Positions 2,569-35,084 of a stretch of 35,942 nucleotides of DNA are shown here, in pieces. Source of the stretch: a virus. The stretch's first letter is position 1, and each line of letters begins with the position of its first letter. Below the pieces are notes generated by a model, which ran no database searches, was not told the DNA's origin, and saw nothing but the letters and a program-made list of their open reading frames with translations. Position numbers and translations under genes: made by a program. The stretch is taken from positions 1-35,942 of the IMG/VR virus record IMGVR_UViG_3300022679_000012. One strand, given 5' to 3'.

Positions 2569-3689
2569 TAGTCATCCTCCCACAGTTTCCGGATGAAAGT
2601 CTTCGTTCCATCGGTCCAAAGCCAGAAGAGCGTTACCGCGCTGGCCGTACTGTTCAGGTTCACATCATAACCGGCGGCATCGATGTCAGTATCCAGGCCC
2701 ATCGTGCGGCCACCCGTACCATCCTGAATCACCTTCAACTCGCAGCCCCTGCCATGCACCATATTGCTCACGGCCAGGGTGATGTCTCCAGTTAAGGTGA
2801 GTACGACTGATGGCTCGGTGGCCAAGTCAATCGTCACGGTGCCGGAGGATCCGGACTTCGCCGTGGCGTCATAGTTCTGTGGGCCCGTCCACCCCTGGGC
2901 CGTGTCGGTCAGGGCCGCATCTGTCAGCCCGATGGTGGCCAGCACCGCAGCTGCGTTGGCATCGTCCAGGATGGTGCGCGCAAAAGCGGTGATGTCCGCC
3001 AGGCCGATCGCATCCGATGCGGTGAAGTACGGCAGCTTATTGGCCGCCGGCGACAACCCGACCAAGGCCTCGAGGATCTCCTCGCCAGCACCTCCGGCCA
3101 GCGCCGTGCCGATCGCGGTCGCTATGCCCAGCTTTTCATAGAAGCCGGCAGCGGTCGTCTCCGCCACCGCAGTGGTGAGTAGGGCGGAGATGATCAGGGC
3201 CCCGATCGAGGAGACGGCGACGTTCTCCAGGCCATCGCCGTCGGTGTTCCATCGGATGACCTCGAGGGCAGCAGGCTCCGGCAGGTTGATGCCGGAAAGC
3301 TCTGTAGTCCTGGGCAGCGTCACGGCCAAGAGCAGCTGCCTGGCCTGCTCCTGGTTGATCAGGCATTGCTTGTCCCAGGCGTTGGTATACAGCTCAGGGC
3401 TAACACCATGCAGCGTCGGCAGCCGCAGCTTCTGGTCGATCGTCGTGTCTCGATCGATGTGGATCTTATAGTCGGAGGTTGGCGCCACCGCGAACACGAT
3501 CGCATCGCCGTCTGTGTTCATGCTGAAGTCAGTGTCCAGGACAAGCTCCTCGGTCGCGCCAGTCGCGATCGTGATCCTGGTCACGACCAGGTGCGAAGAG
3601 CTCTGGAACTGGAAGGTCACAGGAAACTCCAGCGTTACCCCGTTGCCGGTGTACAGGTCGGGCGTGATCGTTGTCTGTTCGACAGTCAT
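2568..3689 (-). CDS. T7 gp17-like tail fibre protein (virion-anchor part)
   Basis: A 373-residue protein at the T7 gene 17 position, right after the giant gp16-position gene. The first 130 residues fit the phage T7 tail-fibre N-terminal anchor: YTGNGVTLEFPVTFQFQ, a VTRI strand, a TDFSM turn, then IHIDRDTTIDQ and NQEQARQLLL. The middle is alanine-rich and helical. The last 110 residues follow a common phage fibre pattern (TLTGDITLAVSNM, ELKVIQDGTGGRTM, then LFWLWTDG). It lacks a long shaft and receptor tip, so it probably anchors the 754-residue protein encoded after it. The start is ATG with GAGGAG about 6 bases upstream. Confidence 0.85.
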   Translation of the reverse strand: MTVEQTTITPDLYTGNGVTLEFPVTFQFQSSSHLVVTRITIATGATEELVLDTDFSMNTDGDAIVFAVAPTSDYKIHIDRDTTIDQKLRLPTLHGVSPELYTNAWDKQCLINQEQARQLLLAVTLPRTTELSGINLPEPAALEVIRWNTDGDGLENVAVSSIGALIISALLTTAVAETTAAGFYEKLGIATAIGTALAGGAGEEILEALVGLSPAANKLPYFTASDAIGLADITAFARTILDDANAAAVLATIGLTDAALTDTAQGWTGPQNYDATAKSGSSGTVTIDLATEPSVVLTLTGDITLAVSNMVHGRGCELKVIQDGTGGRTMGLDTDIDAAGYDVNLNSTASAVTLFWLWTDGTKTFIRKLWEDD

Positions 3690-3701: not shown

Positions 3702-6700
3702 CTATTCTTTGCGTTGTCGATAGAAAAGTACAAATGGGTTCTTGGTTTCGCCCTTGGTCAGGGCCATGGCGCCATCGATCGCCTGGTTGGTTGCGTTGGC
3801 TGGCAAGCCGAACATGTAGCCGCCCGTTTCGATGGTCTTCTTCCGCAGCTGCCGATAGTCCTTGTCTGTCATCCGCTCCGGACCAACGGCCGCCGCGGCC
3901 GCGTCAAACAGCTCCACCCCGAGCTCGCCCGGTGCCTGAATGATGCCGGCAGCCGGTGGCCCGTCATAGCCCCAGTACCGACCAGTGAAGGCCTTGTCCA
4001 AGGCCATCCTGCCGACGTCACGAGCGATCGGGAATGATCCCACAAACATGTCAAGGATCCCGTGCGTCGCCTCTTTGGCCACGTCCTTTGCCTTGGTATC
4101 CTTGTCGGGGATCCCAGGCTTGCCGGCCCACGTCTCGATCATGCTCTGTGCGGCGAGAACCCAAAAGAAGCCCATCATCGCCTCGCCGGCGGTTATTTTC
4201 CCGTCGCGATACTTGTTCTTGGTTTCCATCATCCGGTTGAGCGTAACCGATGCCGCCGTGTAGAAGGGAACCAGGATCTTTTTTGCCGGCCCACCGCGCT
4301 GCCAGCCGCACAGGTCCTTCAGCGACGCGGAGGCCTGTGTTGTTCGCACGGTCATGTCCGCGTGATCGATGGCCATCTTCTCGTCACCCTTGTACTTCTT
4401 CATGCCCTCGCGGTATCCTGCCACCCAGGTGGGCATCGCCACCGCTCGATCCATGGCGGTTATCCAGGAGAAGAACAAGTCATTGAGCTCGGCCTTGCCG
4501 ACGTATTTGTCGCCGACCTTGAACTTCCAGGCGCTGGGATCCCACTGGCGCATCATGTCGGCCACCTCCCGGTCCCAGCTCTTGACCCGGCTGCGCATGT
4601 ACGGGCTTTTCTCGTAGATCCACGCGGACGTCTCTCGCGGCTTCGTATAGAAGATCCTGGCCGCCTCGATGGCCGGCTTGAGGCCGACGGCATCCACCGT
4701 CAACGTGTAGGCGCTGACCTGCTTCAGGGCGGTCGTGGCCTTTAGCCCCAGCGTCACGACGGTCGAGTTCATCCTGGCCTTGTTCAGATAATACTCGAAC
4801 TTGTCCTTGTATTGCGGCCGCGGGTTGGCGATGTGCTGCAGCCATGGCATCAGCTGGGCATATTTCTCAGCCCCCATGTACTGCTCGAAGGTGGCCCTGA
4901 ACTCTGGATTCTGGATCAGCCGGCCGGCATCGCGGACGCCCACCCCGTGGGTCGTATGGTGGATGCTGTCCATCAGCGTCTCGTAGGCGACATCCATCTT
5001 CAGCCTGGGCGGCATCGCACCGCCGACGCGACTCTTGGTCATGCCGCTCTGCGTCGTAGCTACCCGGTACTTGTTTTGCTGGGTCGTGACATCGATGTCC
5101 TTCTGGTGCTGCTCGCCGGCGCGCCAGGATAGCTCCTCGTCGAACTTCAGCGGGAAGTACCCGCCCTGGACAACACCGTAGGGCGTTTCGACATCAACAC
5201 CATCGACCAGCTCCATCTCGGTTCCGGTCAGCTTGCGGTTCGTCTTCTCGAGCTCCGGCCGGATGTGCTCGTATATGTCCCATATTCCGCGAACGACCTG
5301 CCACTCCTGGGGCGTCAGCATGTTGGTGATCGACCGGACGTTTTCCATGTTCCAGCCGTACCCTTCTCTGAGCGCCTTGAGGTTGCCCTCATTGCCAGAG
5401 TTGAGCGCCACCATGATGATCTCCTCCCGGCTGAACGGCCGCTTGCGCAGCTGCTCCGCCAGGGCGCCTGTCGGGTTTGGCACATAGTGCTCCTTGCGGC
5501 CCCAGGCCTTGCGCTCCTTCATGGGCACGTTGCTGAAGGCCTTGTCAAGCCGGCTGGCGACATCCTCCCACATCGTATACTCGCGGACCTCGGCATCGGC
5601 TGCCCACCGGAAGAGGTAGTCATAGAAGGGCCCACGATCGTAGTGGTCCGCCTCGCGGAAAATAAACTCCGGCTTGACCAGGCCGGCCGTGTCATAGGCC
5701 TCGCTGGCGCTTTGCAGGCGGCTCTTATCCCTCCTGGTGTAGGGAACCATTTTAACCTTGAGCTCGCCGGTCTTCTCGTCTTTGACCATGGCCTTGAAGT
5801 GCTGGGGCTCTCCGCGCTGTTTCTTGTGGGCTGCCAGCTTGGCGCTCATCTCCTCGATGGCCTCGCCGACCTCCTCCTTGCGGATAGAGTCCAGTAGCCG
5901 GTTCTCGTTGCGGCCCAGGTACGTCAGAACCTGCACCGCATTGTCCAGGTCACGCAGCTCGGACAGCGTCAGCTTGGTGACCTTCCGCGTGTCCGATGCG
6001 TTGCGCAGCCACATAGGGATAACTTCCATGGCGCCCGTATCGTCATCGTTCTCGCGGATGAACTCCTCCAGGCTTTGCAGCTTGTCGGGCCGGACGACGC
6101 CCGTCTTAATCCCCACATCGTAGCGGGAGAGAAGGGCCCGTACCTGCTCGGCGTGTTCCCAGTTCACCGTGCTCTTTTTGTTGCCCTTCTTCGGCTGGGT
6201 CGTTTTGGCGTTGCGTTTCAGCCTGGCCCGTCGCTTTTTGACCTCGTCGGAGATCTTCTTGCGCTCGCGCATCTTGGCGATGATGGCGCGCTGCCGGTTT
6301 TTCTCCTTCAGGGCCCCCTCGAAGTCGCCGGCCGCGAACGCGGTCCTGGAGGCCTTCGCCGCCATCTGCATGGTGGCCTTGAGCGAGTCGCCCTCGGTCA
6401 TGTATACCTTGGCCACCTCCTCAAGGGACATGCGACCCATTCGGCCGCGCACCAGGCGCTCGATCTGCTTGTCGGTCAGCGGGTTCCCGACCCGCTCCTT
6501 TACCTGGGCCTCGAGGGCAGCCGCCTCCTTGGCCAGTAGAGCGCTGTATTCAGGCGTCAGCACGGCCTCATCAGACTGGAAGGTCTTGTCATATTCGCGG
6601 CTCTTCTCGATCACCAGCTCCTGGGCGATCCGCTTGCGGTTCCTGGCGGACGTCAGCATGCCCAGCATCTCATCCGGTCCCGACATGCCGTAGCGATCAA

Positions 6701-9700
6701 CAAGCTCCTGGACGGTTTCACCGGCCTTGTTACTGAACAGCTTCGGATGCTCACGGGCTATCGCACTCGAGATCTTTTTGCCGAAGACCATCTCGAAGGC
6801 TTTGCGGTTGATGCCGCCGGCGCCTCGGAGCTCGTCAATGAACTTGGCCTCAGGATCTGCAGCGGCTGCCTTCTCCGCGTCCTTCTTCCAGCCCTTGAGG
6901 AGTTTATTATACTCGATGATTCGCTTCTTCCGGATGGCCGTGTCGGCCGCTTCCCCGGCCTTGCCAAGCGCTTGTTTGTAGTCAGACCATGCCTTTTCTC
7001 CGATGAGCTGCTTGCCTTCGCCCTCGAGCCAGTAGGCCTTGAGTTCCATGAAGTCTTTTGCTGCACTGATCTCCTCCTCTGTCGCCAGCAGCCGGTCGAA
7101 TACCTGGCGCATATCGTCATCGATCTTGACGTCCAGCGGCCGGATGCTGCGGTAAATGTTGAGCAGCCACTTCCGCAGGCTGGCGAATGCCTTGGTCAGC
7201 GCCGGCGTCGGGGCCTTTCCCTCGCGAAGGTAGACCTCGCCTGCCTTTGCGAACTTCTCCTTTTGCTCAACCGTCAGCTCCTCGCCCCACTTGGCGCCCA
7301 GAAAGTCGAGCGTCGTCTGCCAGTCCTTCTTCAGCTGCGGATCCGCCTTGCCGCTGAAGGCCAGCTTCTGCATGTCGTCCATAAAAACATGGAACAGCTC
7401 GTGAGGCATCGTCGACTTGTTGGCCTTCTCGAAGAACGTGATGGCCGTTTTTTGACGCTCGAAGGTTGTGGCACCCAATGGCTTGCCGTCGTTCTGGAAC
7501 AGCGGCATGGGCTCCCTGGTGGCCTTGGCGCGCATCTCGCCGGTGATGGGCATGGACCAGACGTCTATGGCCCCCTCCTCGGCCTCGATGCCGTTCATTA
7601 TATCCTCTTCGATGCGCTGGTGAAGTCCTTTCAGTTCAACCTTCGGCTTCCCCCAGCTCTTCTTTCCGAAGGTCTTCTTCATAATGCTGGGCAGGATCTC
7701 GTCATAGAAGCCCTTCATGCCCTTGCCGCCGACCTGGAGGTCTTCGCCGATGTACTCCTTCCCGTCGCCGCCCTCGAGGATTTTCTTGGCCATGTCCTTG
7801 CCGACGACGTCTTCGAGCTTTGCCTTGGGCACATCATAGAACAGGCCGCCGTGCCGGCTAACGGCCTCGGGCACGATCCGGTCGAGAGAGATCGGCGACG
7901 CATGGCTCTTGGTTAAAACGCTCAGCCGCACAACATCGTCCTTTACGTGCATGACGTTGACCGAGTCGACCTGCTTGCTCAGATCGTACCGTGCGTTCTG
8001 CACCTCGCCAGGCGTCCATGCGATCGCGTCGTAACCGTTTTCGGCAGCGTAGCGGACCATCTTCCGCATGGCCAGGCCGGCCCAGGCTGGCGTCTTCTTG
8101 TAAGGCATGTCCGGTACACCTGGGAACATCTTGTCGGCGAGCGATGCGAGCTCCTCTCGCTCCGCCATCGATGCGTCTGCGCCCATCTTCTCGAGCTCCT
8201 TGTAGCGAAGCACCTCCTCTCGGCTCACAAACCCTTTCTTGCGGCCCGTCTGCGCCCAGTCGCTCTGGACCTCCTCGATGAAGAGGATCCGCTCGCCGTT
8301 GGGCCCGATCCGGTCGTTGTGGCGGATGTGGACCAGGATGTTCTCCTCTGTGAAGTGGGTCGGGTTGACAAAAGACCTATTACCCCTGCTGAGCTCTCCG
8401 ACCTCCCGCTCTATCTCGTTCCACCGAACCAGGTCTTCGCCGGCGATGTCCTTGCCGGCAGCGAAATATTTGTCGGATATTGCCTCGCGCTCTCTGTACA
8501 GCTCCGCCATGCGCGCGGCCGACCGACCCCTGTTGTCCAGCCGGATCAGCGTCTCGCGATAGTTGCTCTTGGGCCCCCCCTCCATCTGCCATTCGGGATG
8601 GTTGGTGTTGCTGGTCGTGGCCGTGATCTCCTCGATCAGGCCGGTGCTCGGCATCTTCTCGACGGCCTCGATGAGGCTGCGCGGTGAGTCGTCCACGATC
8701 TGGTCGTCCAGCATGATGCGCCACTTGTCGTTGTGAACGCGCTCGATGAAGACGTCCGGCAGCTCGGGATGTTCATACGTCTCGGTGAAGCCCGTCGTCC
8801 GCCCCATCCTGGTGCGCAGGTTCCAGGCGTCAACGTCGAGGATGTTGTCGACCATCTCGGAGTCTTCCTTGACCGTCTCGATCAGCTTGACCTGGTTGCG
8901 GCGAACGTGCTCCATGATCTCCTGCTTGGTGACCTTCTCGCCGGCGCGGCTCTCGAGGTAGCCCTCGATGTCACTCCATTCCATCTCTTCGGCCTTGAAC
9001 TCGTTCTTGCCCTGGTAGGCGCGCACCTGCTGGAGCATGTTCTCGGCGCTGGACGACTTCGGCAGCTTCTTTTCAAGCACCGTCTCCATCACAGAGTACC
9101 ACGGCGCCTGGGACTGGAAGAGCGTCTCGTGGTCGCCCCACTGTTCCTTGAACTCCTGGAGCTTGGACCGGAATGATTCGTAGGCCTCTTCGGGCGTCCA
9201 GTCCTTTTTGATCTCCACGTTGAACGTGGGCCTGGCGCGCTTCTGGCCGTTGACCCACTGGGGCCCATCGATGACGGTGAACTGCAGGTATTTGGGCATC
9301 TCCTTGCCGCCCATGTCGACGCCGGCGAAGGGGTCCCATACGCCATCGAAGCGGATGTCGCGGTAGGCAGGGTTTTTCCCGATGAACTCGTTGACCAGCG
9401 TCTCGCCCGATCGGCTTACCTGGTAAAGTGTTTCCGGCCCCTTGAGCCGCATCTGTCCGAGCTGATTCATCTCATTGACCAGGGTGGCGGAGGCATCTGA
9501 TGGCGACATCTGCTCCAGGATCTGGACAGCATGCTGCTGCCGGCCCTCCTTGATGGCGTCCATGTACTTGGCCGAACACTGGCTGTCACAGGTGATGCAC
9601 TTTCCGGTGGTGCAGCAGCGGTTACTGAAGACGCCTTCCTGCTTGGCGCCGTTGCGGTTGAACTTATAATAGAAACCCAGCTCCTGCAGGGCCTTCAGCT

Positions 9701-26196: not shown

Positions 26197-27479
26197 TACG
26201 CACCTCCCAGCATGCGGTTCCGGAGCTCGACGCTCTCGTCGCCGACCCCGAGATTGTTGGTCAAGGTCATGTAGTCGGAGAGGCCCAGGCGGCTGCCCCT
26301 CTGCCGTTTTGCCATGGGCACGGCGCGCTTGCCGTCGCGGTTGCCTTTATTGTCGGGGCCTATCGGCTCTTGAGGCTTCACGCTGCCGCCGCTCGGGTTG
26401 TTCGAGCCGGCGGTCGGAGAGAATCCCCGGTTGAGTGCCGCCCCGGCCAGCTGGAACTTGCCCAGGCCGGACATCTGCCCAGGCTGGCGTTCGTTGCCAG
26501 TCCGGCCGACCTCGTGCTCGGCCATGTTGCTCATCTCGCTGGCCTTGGTGGCCACGTTGCCGGCCGCGATGCCGGTACCGGTTGCTCGTTCGATGAGAGA
26601 CTGCGCGTTGATAGTGTTGGTCAGGGTAGACCCCAGGAAGTCGGGGCCGATGCCGATCGCCTTTTGCACCACCGGGTTGGTGAGGTCCATGCCCATCTTC
26701 ATGGCGCCCAAAGCAACCGCTGGCCCCAGGGCCATCGAAACCATCTGGCCGGGCACCTGGGAAAGGTTCATGCCGGCCTTGGTCATGTGGTCGAGCATGC
26801 CCTGGTCTTCCATTATGCCGGAGAGCAGGCCGACCTCGTCAGAGGTGATCGCCCGGGTTGTGCCCAGGTTCTGCAGGGCGCCTGCCAGCTCGGCGACGTT
26901 GGTCTTACCCAGGTCCGCCGGCGCGCCGGCCACCATATCGTTCGACATCGGCCCGAATGCCGTGTCCACCGTGTCCGCCTTCGGACCGAACCCGAATGCG
27001 CTGGCAACCTTGTCGGGAACGCCCAGGACGTTGCTGATAGCCTGGCTAATGGCGTTCTTGACGGTTCCGCCCCAGTAACTTCCGAGATGCCCGAGGTCCT
27101 TCGAGAAGGAGCCCCAGGGGTCGTCCATCGTATCCCACGACGGGAGCTGGCTGGCATAGTAGGCGTTGTATTGCTGGGCGGTTGGCGATTGAAGCATGGC
27201 CTTGGTGATGTCGGAGAGGTTGGCGCCGGAAGATCTGGACCCCCCATCACCTGAATGCTGGTCACCACCCAGGGCATCGATGCTCGCCCTTTCGGAAGGG
27301 GTGCCGACGCCGCCATAGGCCGTGCTGTCAGGGTTGGCGCCAGAGTATGCGCCCCCTCCACCACCACCGCCACCGCTGCTGGAAGAGCCTCCTGGGTCAT
27401 TGTCGCTGCCGTGTTCGCCGACATCTCCGCCACCGAGCCCCATCGAGCACCACAGTGGGTTTACCTTAAATCTGATCAT
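26196..27479 (-). CDS. Putative structural protein with Gly/Ser-rich N-terminus
   Basis: A 427-residue protein between large terminase and portal. Residues 15-45 are a Gly/Ser run, residues 90-110 read SPTAQQYNAYYASQLP, and the body is small-residue-rich and helical (ALGPAVALGAMKMGMDL). The C-terminus is basic and contains MAKRQRGSRLGLSDYMTL. No enzyme motif was seen. Its place inside the head block and glycine-rich ends suggest a virion or ejected protein, but I do not recognise the family. The start overlaps the terminase stop by one base (TGATG). Confidence 0.6.
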   Translation of the reverse strand: MIRFKVNPLWCSMGLGGGDVGEHGSDNDPGGSSSSGGGGGGGGAYSGANPDSTAYGGVGTPSERASIDALGGDQHSGDGGSRSSGANLSDITKAMLQSPTAQQYNAYYASQLPSWDTMDDPWGSFSKDLGHLGSYWGGTVKNAISQAISNVLGVPDKVASAFGFGPKADTVDTAFGPMSNDMVAGAPADLGKTNVAELAGALQNLGTTRAITSDEVGLLSGIMEDQGMLDHMTKAGMNLSQVPGQMVSMALGPAVALGAMKMGMDLTNPVVQKAIGIGPDFLGSTLTNTINAQSLIERATGTGIAAGNVATKASEMSNMAEHEVGRTGNERQPGQMSGLGKFQLAGAALNRGFSPTAGSNNPSGGSVKPQEPIGPDNKGNRDGKRAVPMAKRQRGSRLGLSDYMTLTNNLGVGDESVELRNRMLGGA

Positions 27480-29044
27480 CAGTACCTCCCTCCCAGCGCA
27501 TCCGGCCGGCTATCCGAGAGCGGATCCGGCGGTGCCTGGTCATATCCTACACCGTATTGATTTTGCATGCGGCTCCATTGCGGGTTGCCGGCGACATGGC
27601 CGCGGGGCGCCAGGCCGGCCCGAGAAGCCTCTCTTCTGCTTATGACTGGATAGGCAAAGGTAAGGGCCAGGGCGTCCGCGCAGTCGGGAGAAGGGAAGCC
27701 TCGCTTCTTTGTGTCCTGCTTCTTCTCGAGCTGTATGGCGCTGGCCTCTCCTCCACCTGCGAAACCGTATTCCGGAGCGGTGAGATCGTCGCGCATCTCG
27801 GGATCGTCAGGAAGGCAGCCGCCCTCCTTGATCCAAGAACGCATGCGGCCCCACATCTCGGTGCGCTTGTTGAACCAGTGCGTCGGATCGTCAGCTGCGG
27901 ACCCGAACGGCACCTCGACGACCAGGTCACCGTGCCCCAGCTGCCGGAGGCGATCGATCACGCCAACGCCGGCGCCTTGGTCGACGAAGACGACGTCCGG
28001 ATCCCAATCGTGAATGACCTCGTTGACCCGGCCGGCCACGACCATGTTGTCGGGGATCCGGAGCTTGATCTGCGGGAACATCGCATAGCCCTGACGCTTA
28101 CAGATAACGCTCTGGTCATCGCCCTGCCTGGCGACATCGACGCCCAGGATCTTCGGCATATGATAGTAGGCGGAGCGCTGGACGTCCTTGCCCATGCGAC
28201 TCTCGACCATGGCCTCGGATATAAACTGCATGTAGCCGGCCCGGGGCTCCATGCCCCTGACGCGAACGCGCACAAAGTCAGAGTCCTCGCCGTAGTCCTC
28301 GACCCACTCCTGCAGCTGCTTCTTGTTGGCCATCTTGGCCGTCCGGCTGTCGATCTCCATCGTGTACCAGCGGTGCCTGAACCGCTTAAAGCACTGAGAG
28401 AAGCGGCCGGTGTTCCTGGTCCGGTTGCCGCAGGCGATCCACATCGCACCGATCGTGGTCATGGCGCCGTCGGCCGTCTCCCAAATGATGTCCTCGATGT
28501 TGGAGCTCTCGTCGAAGAGCATCAGGACGCGGCCCCCAGGGCCCTCTTCATGCGTACCGGCGAAGGCCTCCGGATTGTTTGATGACCAGGGCACCGCGGA
28601 GACGCCCCAGGTCTTGGGGCTCGCTACGCAGGCGAACCTGGTGGCCGTGTAAAGCATCCAATCCCTGGTCCGGCTGAGACTGTTCCACTTGCCGCACTCG
28701 CGCCAGGTCTTACCGGTTAGCTGCTCCTTGGTGTTGGCGGTCATAACGCCGTTGAGGTTGGGCCTGGTCTTGACGGCCCAGTTGGCCACCCAGTTCATCC
28801 AGGCGGACTTGCCGATGCCGTGGCCGGATCCGATCGCCATCTGGACGGCCTTCTCGATGCCGACCGTCTTGGTGAGCTCGCCCAGCTGCCGTAGCGCGTT
28901 GGCCTGCCAGACGTCGGGCCCTTCATGGTGGGCCAGCTGCCCCTCGCCCCAGGGATAGTCGAACAGGGTGAAGCCCAGGGGATCGTCCACAAATTGAGCG
29001 GTGGCCTCGATGAGGGCTGCAGCTGGATCTCTTGCCTCAAGCAT
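27479..29044 (-). CDS. terL: Terminase large subunit
   Basis: A 521-residue DNA-packaging motor. Walker A is GSGHGIGKS at residues 72-80, Walker B is VLMLFDES with D178-E179, and an ATPase coupling-like segment IACGNRTRNTGRF follows at about 203-214. The RNase H-type nuclease has D303 in ILGVDVARQGDD, D355 in VVFVDQGAG and a third acidic site in SPDCADALALTFA near 452-463. Length and order fit the terminase family. The start ATG has GGAGG 6 bases upstream and overlaps the small-subunit stop by 8 bases. It packages DNA through the portal encoded two genes downstream. Confidence 0.93.
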   Translation of the reverse strand: MLEARDPAAALIEATAQFVDDPLGFTLFDYPWGEGQLAHHEGPDVWQANALRQLGELTKTVGIEKAVQMAIGSGHGIGKSAWMNWVANWAVKTRPNLNGVMTANTKEQLTGKTWRECGKWNSLSRTRDWMLYTATRFACVASPKTWGVSAVPWSSNNPEAFAGTHEEGPGGRVLMLFDESSNIEDIIWETADGAMTTIGAMWIACGNRTRNTGRFSQCFKRFRHRWYTMEIDSRTAKMANKKQLQEWVEDYGEDSDFVRVRVRGMEPRAGYMQFISEAMVESRMGKDVQRSAYYHMPKILGVDVARQGDDQSVICKRQGYAMFPQIKLRIPDNMVVAGRVNEVIHDWDPDVVFVDQGAGVGVIDRLRQLGHGDLVVEVPFGSAADDPTHWFNKRTEMWGRMRSWIKEGGCLPDDPEMRDDLTAPEYGFAGGGEASAIQLEKKQDTKKRGFPSPDCADALALTFAYPVISRREASRAGLAPRGHVAGNPQWSRMQNQYGVGYDQAPPDPLSDSRPDALGGRY

Positions 29045-29663
29045 CGGAGCCTCCGGTGATTGCCTTGCGGTACTTCTGGTCCAGGGCCTTGTTCAGCGCC
29101 ACGGCGATCGACTCAAGACCGTCCCGGACGCCTTCATCGGCGCCGGCCACCATCTTGAGGATCTCCTCGAGGCGTCTCAGGGCCTGGCCCTTGTCCCAAA
29201 AGGCGTAGACCCACTCGGTCGTATCCTCGACCATGTTGCCCTCGTTGTCGTACCGCTTCTTCCTGGTGCACTTGAAGGATTTGACGGCCCGTGCCACCTT
29301 CTCTGGCAGTTCGTTTGGCGGGATGATGCCAAGGGCATCCATGAGGTTGGCAGCGGATGAAAACGCGATCGCGGCCTCCTCGCGCATAATGCGATCGGCG
29401 GTGATCTCGGCCTGCCACAGTTTGCGCTCCAGCTGGGCGGAGACGTGAGCTCTCACGTTTGCGTAGGAAAGAAGGCGGGAGGCTCCGGCTTGCGCGGAGT
29501 TGACGGTGGTGCCTGGATACGCGGCTTGATACGCTTTGACGCCGGTGCCAGGGCCGTTGTATTCGGCTACAAAAACGGCCTCCCGATCAGACAGTGGGTC
29601 TGTGGGAAGCCGCTTGGGCTGGTCGTTTAAAACGACGAGCGGGTTTGATATGTTTGTGCCCAC
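29037..29663 (-). CDS. terS: Terminase small subunit
   Basis: A 208-residue protein with an N-terminal DNA-binding pattern of the Terminase_2 type: LSDREAVFVAEYN, GTGVKAYQAAYPG, SAQAGASRLLSYANVRAHV and ITADRIMREEAAIAFSS. The C-terminal third is helical (WDKGQALRRLEEILKMVAG) and probably forms the ring and large-subunit contact. Start is GTG 29663 with AGGAG about 10 bases upstream. That site lies inside the 3' arm of a 12-base-pair hairpin, so translation may be controlled. It overlaps the large subunit by 8 bases. Confidence 0.85.
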   Translation of the reverse strand: MGTNISNPLVVLNDQPKRLPTDPLSDREAVFVAEYNGPGTGVKAYQAAYPGTTVNSAQAGASRLLSYANVRAHVSAQLERKLWQAEITADRIMREEAAIAFSSAANLMDALGIIPPNELPEKVARAVKSFKCTRKKRYDNEGNMVEDTTEWVYAFWDKGQALRRLEEILKMVAGADEGVRDGLESIAVALNKALDQKYRKAITGGSDA

Positions 29664-29710
29664 GGGGCTAAGCTCCTTTTGGGGATGCTCAGGAGCTTAG
29701 CCTATAGGCT
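29664..29710 (-). promoter_or_regulatory. Hairpin that covers the terS ribosome binding site, with competing palindrome
   Basis: In the transcript, arm GGCTAAGCTCCT (29702-29691) pairs perfectly over 12 bases with AGGAGCTTAGCC (29677-29666), loop 13 bases. The 3' arm contains the AGGAG ribosome binding site of the GTG start at 29663. A perfect 12-base palindrome, AGCCTATAGGCT (29710-29699), overlaps the 5' arm by four bases, so the two structures compete for the outermost four pairs. This looks like a translational control element or attenuator for terminase expression. No U-tract follows, so it is not a standard terminator. Confidence 0.6.
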
Positions 29711-29734: not shown

Positions 29735-30145
29735 CTACTCGTTGCAAGCGATCGCCGCGTTGGCCATGAACGTCGCCTCGCGGATCTTGCGTATGGCGAC
29801 TGTCCGCTCTGCCGACGGTGGGCACTCATCCAGGATGACCAGGGCCATCGCCTTGCCGGCTTCCCGGACGCGGCCATACCGCTCGGCCTGGTCGCCCTTT
29901 GGCCGGTGATAGGTGAACCAGTTGCGGATGTCAGCCTCCGACTGGCTGATGACTCCCGGCACATCCTGGGTGTGTTCGATGGGCTCGCCCTTGAACGCCT
30001 CAGACATGGAGCTCGCGGCATCACCCATGGCCTTCTCGAAGTCGACCAGCGGCTCCTCGGTGGCCGTCATAACTTCGCCCACCTCCTTGTCGAGCTCTTC
30101 CTGGTACGATGCTTCGAGTCGTCGCGTTTCGTTCTCGTCTGGCAT
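29735..30145 (-). CDS. Acb2/Tad1-type cyclic-nucleotide-sponge domain protein (anti-CBASS candidate)
   Basis: A 136-residue protein from ATG 30145, which has GGAGG 7 bases upstream; the longer open frame upstream lacks such a site. Residues 1-65 are acidic and helical with no known match. Residues 73-136 fit the helical hairpin domain shared by Acb2 and Tad1: NWFTYHRPKGDQAERYGRVR, then EAGKAMALVILDECPPSAER, then TVAIRKIREATFMANAAIA and CNE. In phages this domain binds cyclic di- or trinucleotides or cyclic ADP-ribose signals and blocks CBASS or Thoeris immunity. The extra N-terminal region is longer than in typical stand-alone Acb2. It sits between a hydrolase gene and terminase. Ligand choice cannot be inferred by eye. 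Confidence 0.75.
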   Translation of the reverse strand: MPDENETRRLEASYQEELDKEVGEVMTATEEPLVDFEKAMGDAASSMSEAFKGEPIEHTQDVPGVISQSEADIRNWFTYHRPKGDQAERYGRVREAGKAMALVILDECPPSAERTVAIRKIREATFMANAAIACNE

Positions 30146-30156
30146 AATGTTCCTCC

Positions 30157-30861
30157 TCACAGTAGATGTATCGGCATTGACAATGTGTTCCCGATGAGCA
30201 CGAGCCCACTGCTCGCGAAGTCCGCCGGCACCCACTCATCGCTGGGTCGCACGTCTGGATGGCGCCATGCTACCGGTGGCCAAAAGAATGAAAAGCGCTT
30301 GGACGGCGCCGTGTCTGAATGGTACTCGAGGATCCACCCCATGGCCTGCAGGATCTCCGCCACCAGCTCGGAGCAGAATAGGCTCGACAGGTCTTCCAGG
30401 TCGTCGCCCTCGTTGAATCGATCGAACACCGCGGCCACCAGGTCCAGCTTGCTTCGCTCGTATGGCAGGCCCTTGAGCTGTATCATACGGTCTGCCATGG
30501 CCAGGACCTGGGCGCCACTCGGAGGGGCCGCCGGGATCCGGACAGCAACGTGGCCATTGTACTGGGCAACCCGGGTCGACATGCTCACCAGCTGAACGCC
30601 GGAGCGCTTGGTGCCGGTCATGATGTCGTCTCCCTCGGAGAGCGTTGTCGACTCCAGGAGGAGCAAGGTCTGCGTGATCGGATCCCTGTAGGTTATCCCA
30701 ACATGCGTCCACATCGACGTGTCGTGGGAGTGACCGGCCATCCCCTGTCCCATCTTGATCAGGTTGCTGACAGGCCCGTCTCCCGAAAAAAGCACGATCG
30801 ACCCCGTGCATATCCTCGGCCGCAGCTGGTCGTAGTTCTTGAGCTTATCCTGATGTATCAT
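30157..30861 (-). CDS. Permuted NlpC/P60 (YiiX/C92-like) hydrolase
   Basis: A 234-residue protein; I prefer ATG 30861 over TTG 30882. It matches circularly permuted papain-like amidases: LRPRICTGSIVLFSGDG at the start, catalytic His53 in WTHVGITY, Glu70 in LLLLESTT, and the nucleophile Cys163 in SLFCSELVAEIL. The His-before-Cys order is the mark of the permuted group. Members cleave amide bonds in peptidoglycan or lipid-like substrates. Next to an M23 peptidase it could help lysis, but no signal peptide is seen. It overlaps the upstream gene by 17 bases and is 11 bases before the Acb2-like gene. Confidence 0.75.
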   Translation of the reverse strand: MIHQDKLKNYDQLRPRICTGSIVLFSGDGPVSNLIKMGQGMAGHSHDTSMWTHVGITYRDPITQTLLLLESTTLSEGDDIMTGTKRSGVQLVSMSTRVAQYNGHVAVRIPAAPPSGAQVLAMADRMIQLKGLPYERSKLDLVAAVFDRFNEGDDLEDLSSLFCSELVAEILQAMGWILEYHSDTAPSKRFSFFWPPVAWRHPDVRPSDEWVPADFASSGLVLIGNTLSMPIHLL

Positions 30862-31153
30862 CAGACCCCTCTCTGATTCCAAGCAGTTTATTGATCTTGT
30901 CGCGGTTCTCCCTGAGCATGCGGACCTTCTTCATCGTCAGGCCCATGCGCTTGGCTGCCGACCTCGATGCGTTGCGGTTGGTCAGCCCCTTGGCCTTGAA
31001 GCCCTTGAAGTGCTCATCGTAGGCATTAATCGCCAGGTTCACCTTGCGATATGTCTCCCGCAGTACCGGGTCTGTGAAGACCGTCTCCTTTGCCTCGTCC
31101 ATGTTTTTAGCGCCGGCCAGGATCCCCAGCGGGTCATACAGCTTGTCGTTCAT
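30845..31153 (-). CDS. Small hypothetical protein, possible helix-turn-helix
   Basis: A 102-residue protein from ATG 31153 (ATGA overlap with the upstream stop, AAGGAG immediately upstream). The upstream frame extension is not needed. It has a helical acidic N-terminal half (ILAGAKNMDEAKETVF) and a basic C-terminal half with a helix-turn-helix-like run (RNASRSAAKRMGLTMKKVRM). A DNA-binding role is a guess. It ends inside the start of the hydrolase gene. Confidence 0.6.
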   Translation of the reverse strand: MNDKLYDPLGILAGAKNMDEAKETVFTDPVLRETYRKVNLAINAYDEHFKGFKAKGLTNRNASRSAAKRMGLTMKKVRMLRENRDKINKLLGIREGSDDTSG

Positions 31154-34266: not shown

Positions 34267-34548
34267 CTACGGGTTCTTATAGCCATGCTTGGCCTTGTAT
34301 TGAATCACTCGGCGCCTAACATGGTCGCGGCATCTGTTTTGAATCTGCCGAACCCTGGTCCTCGACACGCCATGCAGCTCTGACAGCTCACTGAGTGTTG
34401 CGCCGGCAGCCGTCTGGAGGAAGATATCCCGGTTCCTTTCAGACAGCGGCTGCAGCGTAAACACGAGGAACTCCTTCCACTCCATGATCGTGTCCGGTGG
34501 CCAGCCGTGGGATCCTGGGTAGCCCAGTAAGATAGGCGCCAATTCCAT
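34267..34548 (-). CDS. Sigma-region-4-like helix-turn-helix protein
   Basis: A 93-residue protein from ATG 34548; the longer upstream frame overlaps another gene and is a shadow. Residues 32-80 match sigma-70 region 4: LQPLSERNRDIFLQT, GATLSELSELHGVS and RTRVRQIQNRCRDH. It lacks regions 2 and 3, so it is not a full sigma factor. By position, ahead of the nuclease, lysis and packaging genes, it is a good candidate for a late-gene activator like other small phage region-4 proteins. Confidence 0.7.
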   Translation of the reverse strand: MELAPILLGYPGSHGWPPDTIMEWKEFLVFTLQPLSERNRDIFLQTAAGATLSELSELHGVSRTRVRQIQNRCRDHVRRRVIQYKAKHGYKNP

Positions 34549-34550
34549 CG

Positions 34551-35084
34551 TTAGTCTCCCTGGTCGAACTCGGCAATCGTCAGGCCGAGGTTGGCAATGA
34601 GCTGCATGACGTCGTCGACCTTGAGCTCCAGGTCCGCGACGGTCCTGTTTGTGGATGCGATCTGGGCGCCGTGATCCCCGATTGTTTTCCATATCTGGTT
34701 CAGCCGGCCGTTGTTGGTTGCCCTGGTCAGGACGTCTTCCGGATCCAGCCCGGTAGAGCGCAGCAGCTCGTCTACCCAGGTGTTCTGGCATGACCTCAAC
34801 TCACCCTCCTTCTCGAGCCTGGCCTGCAGGAGGGCCATGATCTGGCGCACCTCGTGCGTCGATAAGGCATTCCAGATGGCGTCGACCGCCTCAATGGCCG
34901 CACAGCTGGACAGGTACTTACGCGTGATCTCTGCCGGCGATGTGACCCCTGGCCGCCTACTAATTTCCGCTTCAGCTGCGATCTCAAGCTGTTTGCGAGC
35001 CCATGTTGCCCCATCCATGCCTTGGGGCTTGCCGATCCTTCTCATCTTTTCCATGAAACCCTCTGATACTTTAATCTCTGGCAT
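34551..35084 (-). CDS. Hypothetical helical protein
   Basis: A 177-residue protein from ATG 35084, chosen because GGAGG lies 6 bases upstream. An ATG at 35183 would overlap the upstream stop (ATGA) and add 33 residues, so a longer form is possible; if the short form is right, 35085-35179 is a 95-base untranslated gap in which I see no other feature. The protein is helical and charged (EGFMEKMRRIGKPQGMDG, then EVRQIMALLQARLEKEGE) with a coiled-coil end (LELKVDDVMQLIANLGLT). Not recognised. Confidence 0.6.
   Translation of the reverse strand: MPEIKVSEGFMEKMRRIGKPQGMDGATWARKQLEIAAEAEISRRPGVTSPAEITRKYLSSCAAIEAVDAIWNALSTHEVRQIMALLQARLEKEGELRSCQNTWVDELLRSTGLDPEDVLTRATNNGRLNQIWKTIGDHGAQIASTNRTVADLELKVDDVMQLIANLGLTIAEFDQGD

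Follow-up and report, generated by a model that had tools for sequence, protein, structure and literature searches.

An Acb2-type hairpin protein with a conserved N-terminal helix in a viral packaging operon, and its in-frame fusion to a RyR domain in a sister virus

A gene next to the terminase genes of the IMG/VR virus record IMGVR_UViG_3300022679_000012 (35,942 nt, the whole of which was analyzed and is called the window here) was identified as probably encoding an accessory immune-evasion protein, namely an Acb2-type cyclic-nucleotide sponge, as judged from its sequence and predicted fold. Acb2 proper forms hexamers, binds cyclic di- and trinucleotides, and blocks CBASS. Two elements are new, as read from the sequences: the N-terminal helix, which is conserved, and the occurrence of this gene, within its lineage, in a form fused to a RyR domain. 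The comparison relies on two sister viruses, L095 and L096, which are IMG/VR contigs whose terminases are 88% identical to those of the window. The gene and its parts are as follows.

29735–30145, minus strand: gene of the Acb2-type hairpin protein, 136 aa (open reading frame; PF24729, 1.3e-12; phrog_1454, 2.4e-19)
30152–30156, minus strand: Shine-Dalgarno GGAGG of this gene (from the sequence; same arrangement in L096)
30056–30145, minus strand: conserved N-terminal helix region, residues 1–30 (AlphaFold2 helix 4–28; kept in L096)
29942–30055, minus strand: variable acidic linker, residues 31–68 (pLDDT about 60–70; pN/pS 0.79 against L096)
29738–29941, minus strand: hairpin domain, residues 69–136 (Pfam match 78–134; AlphaFold2; Tyr79 at the position of T4 Acb2 Tyr8)

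An earlier note on this DNA had recognized the Acb2/Tad1 hairpin pattern in residues 73–136, and the motifs it quoted are indeed present. The profile search that it named beforehand as a test matched PF24729 (Acb2/Tad1 hairpin) to residues 78–134 with E = 1.3e-12 and 48.2 bits against a curated cut-off of 27, covering the model in full (positions 1–58 of 58), and phrog_1454 was matched at E = 2.4e-19. The same Pfam model matches T4 Acb2/Vs.4 at 7.1e-20. Using a profile of 13 homologues, the PDB structure “Acb2 homolog 43” (9ptq) was matched at 4e-8 and the Tad1 chains at E 0.003–0.004; a single-sequence search of the PDB sequences with the window protein found nothing, and PADLOC gave no match. 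The homologues share the core consensus FxYHxPxxxQxxRY...ANAxIA. These matches identify the window protein as a real member of the known Acb2/Tad1 sponge family, and it likely functions by ligand binding. Relatives occur in 128 named phage records and at least 532 IMG/VR stretches, and the hairpin name is already used in public annotation; as the family is common and already named, belonging to it is nothing novel. The closest subfamily comprises the phrog_1454 stand-alone hairpins of Brevibacillus, Paenibacillus, Gordonia, and Mycobacterium phages, which have the same core and are usually about 66–80 aa long.

The fold of the protomer was predicted with AlphaFold2 (56 aligned sequences, mean pLDDT 83.6), and the helical hairpin, whose absence the same note had named as a refutation, is present in the resulting model. 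It consists of a helix (4–28), a low-confidence stretch (29–65), a short helix (70–76) that precedes the hairpin, and two long antiparallel helices (84–107 and 112–134) with pLDDT mostly above 90, and it contains no strands. The published Acb2 protomer is composed of a short helix and two long antiparallel helices (PMC12043709), which is the layout predicted for the last three helices of this model. Tad1 instead carries an N-terminal four-stranded antiparallel β-sheet (PMC12043709), and its identity with the window protein was ruled out since no such sheet was modeled. The label “Acb2/Tad1-type” hence holds for the Acb2-like helical layout and fails for Tad1, the anti-Thoeris protein, with which the window protein shares the C-terminal helical hairpin family as seen in the profile matches above. 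Foldseek gave a probability of 1.00 to many Acb2/Tad1 hairpin models in the viral model libraries. Against the PDB, it listed T4 Acb2 (with cGAMP) at E 3.5 and a probability of 0.38, not above unrelated bundles, and the VIA Z-score of 6.1 to T4 Acb2 was no higher than those of unrelated helical bundles. Such weak separation is expected for a small helical hairpin, and these scores were therefore not taken as proof.

Tyr79 aligns with Tyr8 of T4 Acb2, a residue at which mutation disrupts the binding of cyclic dinucleotides (PMC12657218), and the tyrosine is more than 90% conserved among 56 homologues. The ligand-stacking Phe82 of T4 Acb2, which is specific to the T4 ligand site and does not define the family, is matched by Ala133; the alignment there has no gaps, but the similarity is weak. 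Alanine at this position is general in the subfamily, whose C-terminal block ANAxIA is nearly invariant, and another residue could stand in for Phe82. With Tyr79 kept and Phe82 replaced, the predicted pocket is related to that of T4 Acb2 but probably not identical. The subfamily-wide change from Phe to Ala beside a nearly invariant ANAxIA would also fit a protein that binds a different small nucleotide, such as a cADPR isomer, a cyclic mononucleotide, or some other signal, in place of the cyclic oligonucleotides of CBASS. Ligand switching does occur among these hairpins, as illustrated by Tad1, a gcADPR binder from the same Pfam family (PMC12043709). The conserved tyrosine and the short-helix Acb2 layout lacking the Tad1 sheet argue against such a switch, which we regard as rather unlikely. 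The favored Acb2-type assignment is in line with the features shared with T4 Vs.4 and PaMx33/PaP2 Acb2, which are the PF24729 hairpin, one short and two long antiparallel helices, and the Tyr8 equivalent. The differences from T4 Acb2 are approximately 65 extra N-terminal residues, the loss of Phe82, an identity of only about 25%, and the location in a packaging operon.

The extra residues are preceded by clear signals for translation. The gene starts with ATG at 30145 on the minus strand, and its GGAGG lies directly 3′ of the TGA stop (30157–30159) of the upstream gene. Since this Shine-Dalgarno sequence abuts the upstream stop and precedes the ATG, the hairpin gene is probably translationally coupled to its neighbor. 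The reading frame is intact and ends directly after ACNE. GC contents by codon position in the first 65 codons (0.69/0.37/0.77) resemble those of the adjacent genes, indicating that the extension is coding. A true internal start, by which the extension would be mistranslated upstream sequence, was ruled out because it is the ATG at 30145 that has the good Shine-Dalgarno sequence, and because L096 retains both this signal and the same N-terminus. The added N-terminal region proposed earlier is hence real, as evidenced by the strong Shine-Dalgarno sequence, codon bias, and conservation of residues 1–30 in L096.

The extension had been described as about 65 acidic helical residues, of which the acidity was borne out (18 D/E versus 5 K/R in residues 1–69), whereas a confident helix was predicted only for residues 4–28, with pLDDT above 90 for residues 1–20. 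Between the window and L096, pN/pS was 0.30 for residues 1–30, 0.79 for the linker, and 0.50 for the hairpin, values that derive from two sequences with synonymous sites in the linker near saturation. With residues 1–30 constrained and the linker nearly free, the extension amounts to a single conserved helix followed by a leash-like segment. The further statement that known stand-alone versions are shorter is right for most of the family: 76 residues precede the conserved Phe in the window protein, compared with a median of about 11 (mostly 8–20, as is usual for the phrog_1454 proteins) among 119 distinct homologues, for which start codons were chosen by a simple Shine-Dalgarno score so that single lead lengths are approximate. 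It is not a rule, however, because leads of at least 35 residues occur in roughly one-tenth of these homologues and BFVD family members measure 118–195 aa. The long leads each appear different by eye, one being Cys-rich and another containing a hydrophobic segment. In the locus L093 (5962–6180 plus an upstream frame), the longer frame of a hairpin homologue, whose start codon is uncertain, opens with a strongly hydrophobic segment, and this homologue is possibly a membrane-anchored sponge. For the extension of the window protein, no match was found in Pfam, no credible one in the phage records, and none among the window open reading frames, and a wide search for further copies of this N-terminus found only L096.

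The orthologue in L096 occupies the same slot with the same Shine-Dalgarno sequence and N-terminus, and is 51–55% identical along the whole length of the window protein. Its frame (1349–2119, 256 aa) runs 129 residues past ...ACNE and contains a RyR domain (PF02026, 3.4e-11), giving an in-frame fusion of the N-terminal helix, the Acb2-type hairpin, and the RyR domain. The junction between hairpin and RyR domain includes an SD-like AAGGAGGAGGAGG with no start codon shortly downstream, for which reason a complete RyR domain can apparently be made only from the fused frame. We infer from this arrangement that the L096 gene arose by fusion of two neighboring genes. In none of the 50,697 named phage records did a single site cover 80% or more of the fusion. 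The search that finds PF02026 in L096 detected no RyR domain in the window record, and L095 has no hairpin-protein gene in this slot, its upstream gene being followed directly by the terS RNA hairpin. The slot before terS thus exists in three states, i.e., empty (L095), hairpin alone (window), and hairpin–RyR fusion (L096), and their occurrence in close relatives points to a site for accessory immune-evasion cargo. The missing RyR half and the stop placed exactly after ACNE might be read as signs that the window gene is a decayed, non-functional remnant of an L096-like fusion. This is very improbable considering the intact frame, strong Shine-Dalgarno sequence, normal codon bias, and purifying selection on both N-terminus and hairpin, besides which most hairpin proteins of the family have no RyR domain.

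According to a 2026 preprint (PMC13232231), Thoeris is defeated by phage proteins with a RyR domain, which cleave or sequester 2′cADPR and 3′cADPR; the members were assayed there as individual R12 domains, and Acb2 is not mentioned. Homologues that bind without cleaving were also reported (PMC13232231), which makes sequestration as likely as cleavage for the L096 domain. Its putative ligand-site residues H70, W73, H95, and D112 (numbered from the start of the C-terminal part) are spaced by 3, 25, and 42, and the same spacing is found for H75, W78, H100, and D117 of RyDEP when compared by counting rather than by alignment to the RyDEP sequence. Pectobacterium phage proteins share 58% identity with the L096 domain; a sponge-type RyR member has been reported from the Pectobacterium phage group and is not necessarily the same protein as this match. 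Like RyDEP and the sponge-type homologues, the domain belongs to PF02026, and it differs in being a C-terminal fusion, which the window protein lacks. For 120 distinct hairpins, RyR genes lay close by at 3 loci, which are L079 (immediately downstream), L051, and L080, compared with 1 of 79 terminase loci other than L096. One fusion and three neighborhoods are too few to exceed chance, and enrichment is therefore not claimed. In L079 (5989–6535), the RyR-domain frame begins at the stop of the hairpin gene, and this pair is possibly a two-gene counterpart of the L096 fusion.

The earlier note had placed the gene beside terminase, which was confirmed by the following features of its surroundings.

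30157–30882, minus strand: upstream gene of the same operon (PF05708, E = 0.023, below cut-off; weak matches to C92 papain-type peptidases)
29037–29663, minus strand: terminase small subunit, terS (PF03592, 4.6e-11)
27479–29044, minus strand: terminase large subunit, terL (phrog_2, 1.2e-29; phrog_5902, 1e-50)
29658–29709, minus strand: strong RNA hairpin between the sponge gene and terS (MFE −30.8 kcal/mol, z −3.8)

The upstream gene, which is conserved in L095 and L096, the sponge gene, terS, and terL form a tight run, and neither promoter-like nor terminator-like sites were found at the two junctions of the sponge gene. Being located immediately ahead of terS within the same operon would suit a packaging or virion role, in which terminase or portal would be bound by the N-terminal helix, with the hairpin acting as an oligomerization scaffold instead of a sponge. 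It would also agree with an N-terminal helix at least as conserved as the hairpin, and with homologues beside portal or terminase genes, which are gp24 of Gordonia phage Chidiebere (directly after portal) and gp9 of Arthrobacter phage Jasmine (two genes before the large terminase). These two homologues are also precedents for a location among packaging genes. However, the terminase genes are the same in L095, which lacks the hairpin gene, so this gene is not needed for packaging; furthermore, most annotated homologues examined lie in non-structural regions, and signal binding is what the L096 fusion with a RyR domain suggests. A packaging role is accordingly judged unlikely, and the sponge remains the preferred reading of the gene.

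Several other elements of this region were observed. The RNA hairpin holds the terS Shine-Dalgarno sequence in its 3′ arm, with the outer stem containing or adjoining the start codon, and it could control terS translation or form part of a packaging site. Similar hairpins are present in L096 (~2140–2192, z −4.6) and L095 (~3110–3165, z −6.2), and a scan of the collection for this pattern gave only these two sister contigs. In the locus L155, a stand-alone RyR-domain gene (~6637–6984) is located shortly downstream of a related terL (4501–5901), and by its domain it is another predicted signal-binding gene among packaging genes. The closest named terminase to the window terL is that of BK063671 (vir555), with 56% identity; its host is given as Methanomicrobiales, a link too weak to name the host of the window virus, and a search of bacterial and archaeal genomes yielded no related terminase. 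The window also encodes a sigma-70 region 4-like protein (34267–34791, minus strand; PF04545, 2.2e-07), which possibly regulates the transcription of the virus itself.

As for the mechanism, the two long antiparallel helices would most likely assemble into an Acb2-like oligomer and hold the cyclic oligonucleotide products of CBASS-type (or type III CRISPR) enzymes, such that the suicide effector stays off. Residues 1–30 would be a conserved helix of their own, tethered by the flexible acidic linker, and probably serve as a binding or assembly module. The slot in the packaging operon is exchangeable among its three forms, and the L096 product probably also captures the cyclic ADP-ribose signals of Thoeris. 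We further suggest, with somewhat less than even confidence, that this lineage represents a modular two-signal sponge composed of the N-terminal helix, the Acb2-type binder, and, in the sister virus, the RyR domain, whereby one polypeptide disarms both CBASS and Thoeris and the window protein is the single-signal form.

Phage sponges and RyR proteins have so far been studied singly, and L096 provides a natural in-frame fusion of both families. The three states of the slot offer a ready test of whether phages unite, within a single protein, counter-defenses directed at different nucleotide signals, and the same comparison bears on what the extra N-terminal helix adds to a family that is itself already described. 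If the two-signal reading is true, a single protein would be aimed at two different defenses, CBASS and Thoeris.
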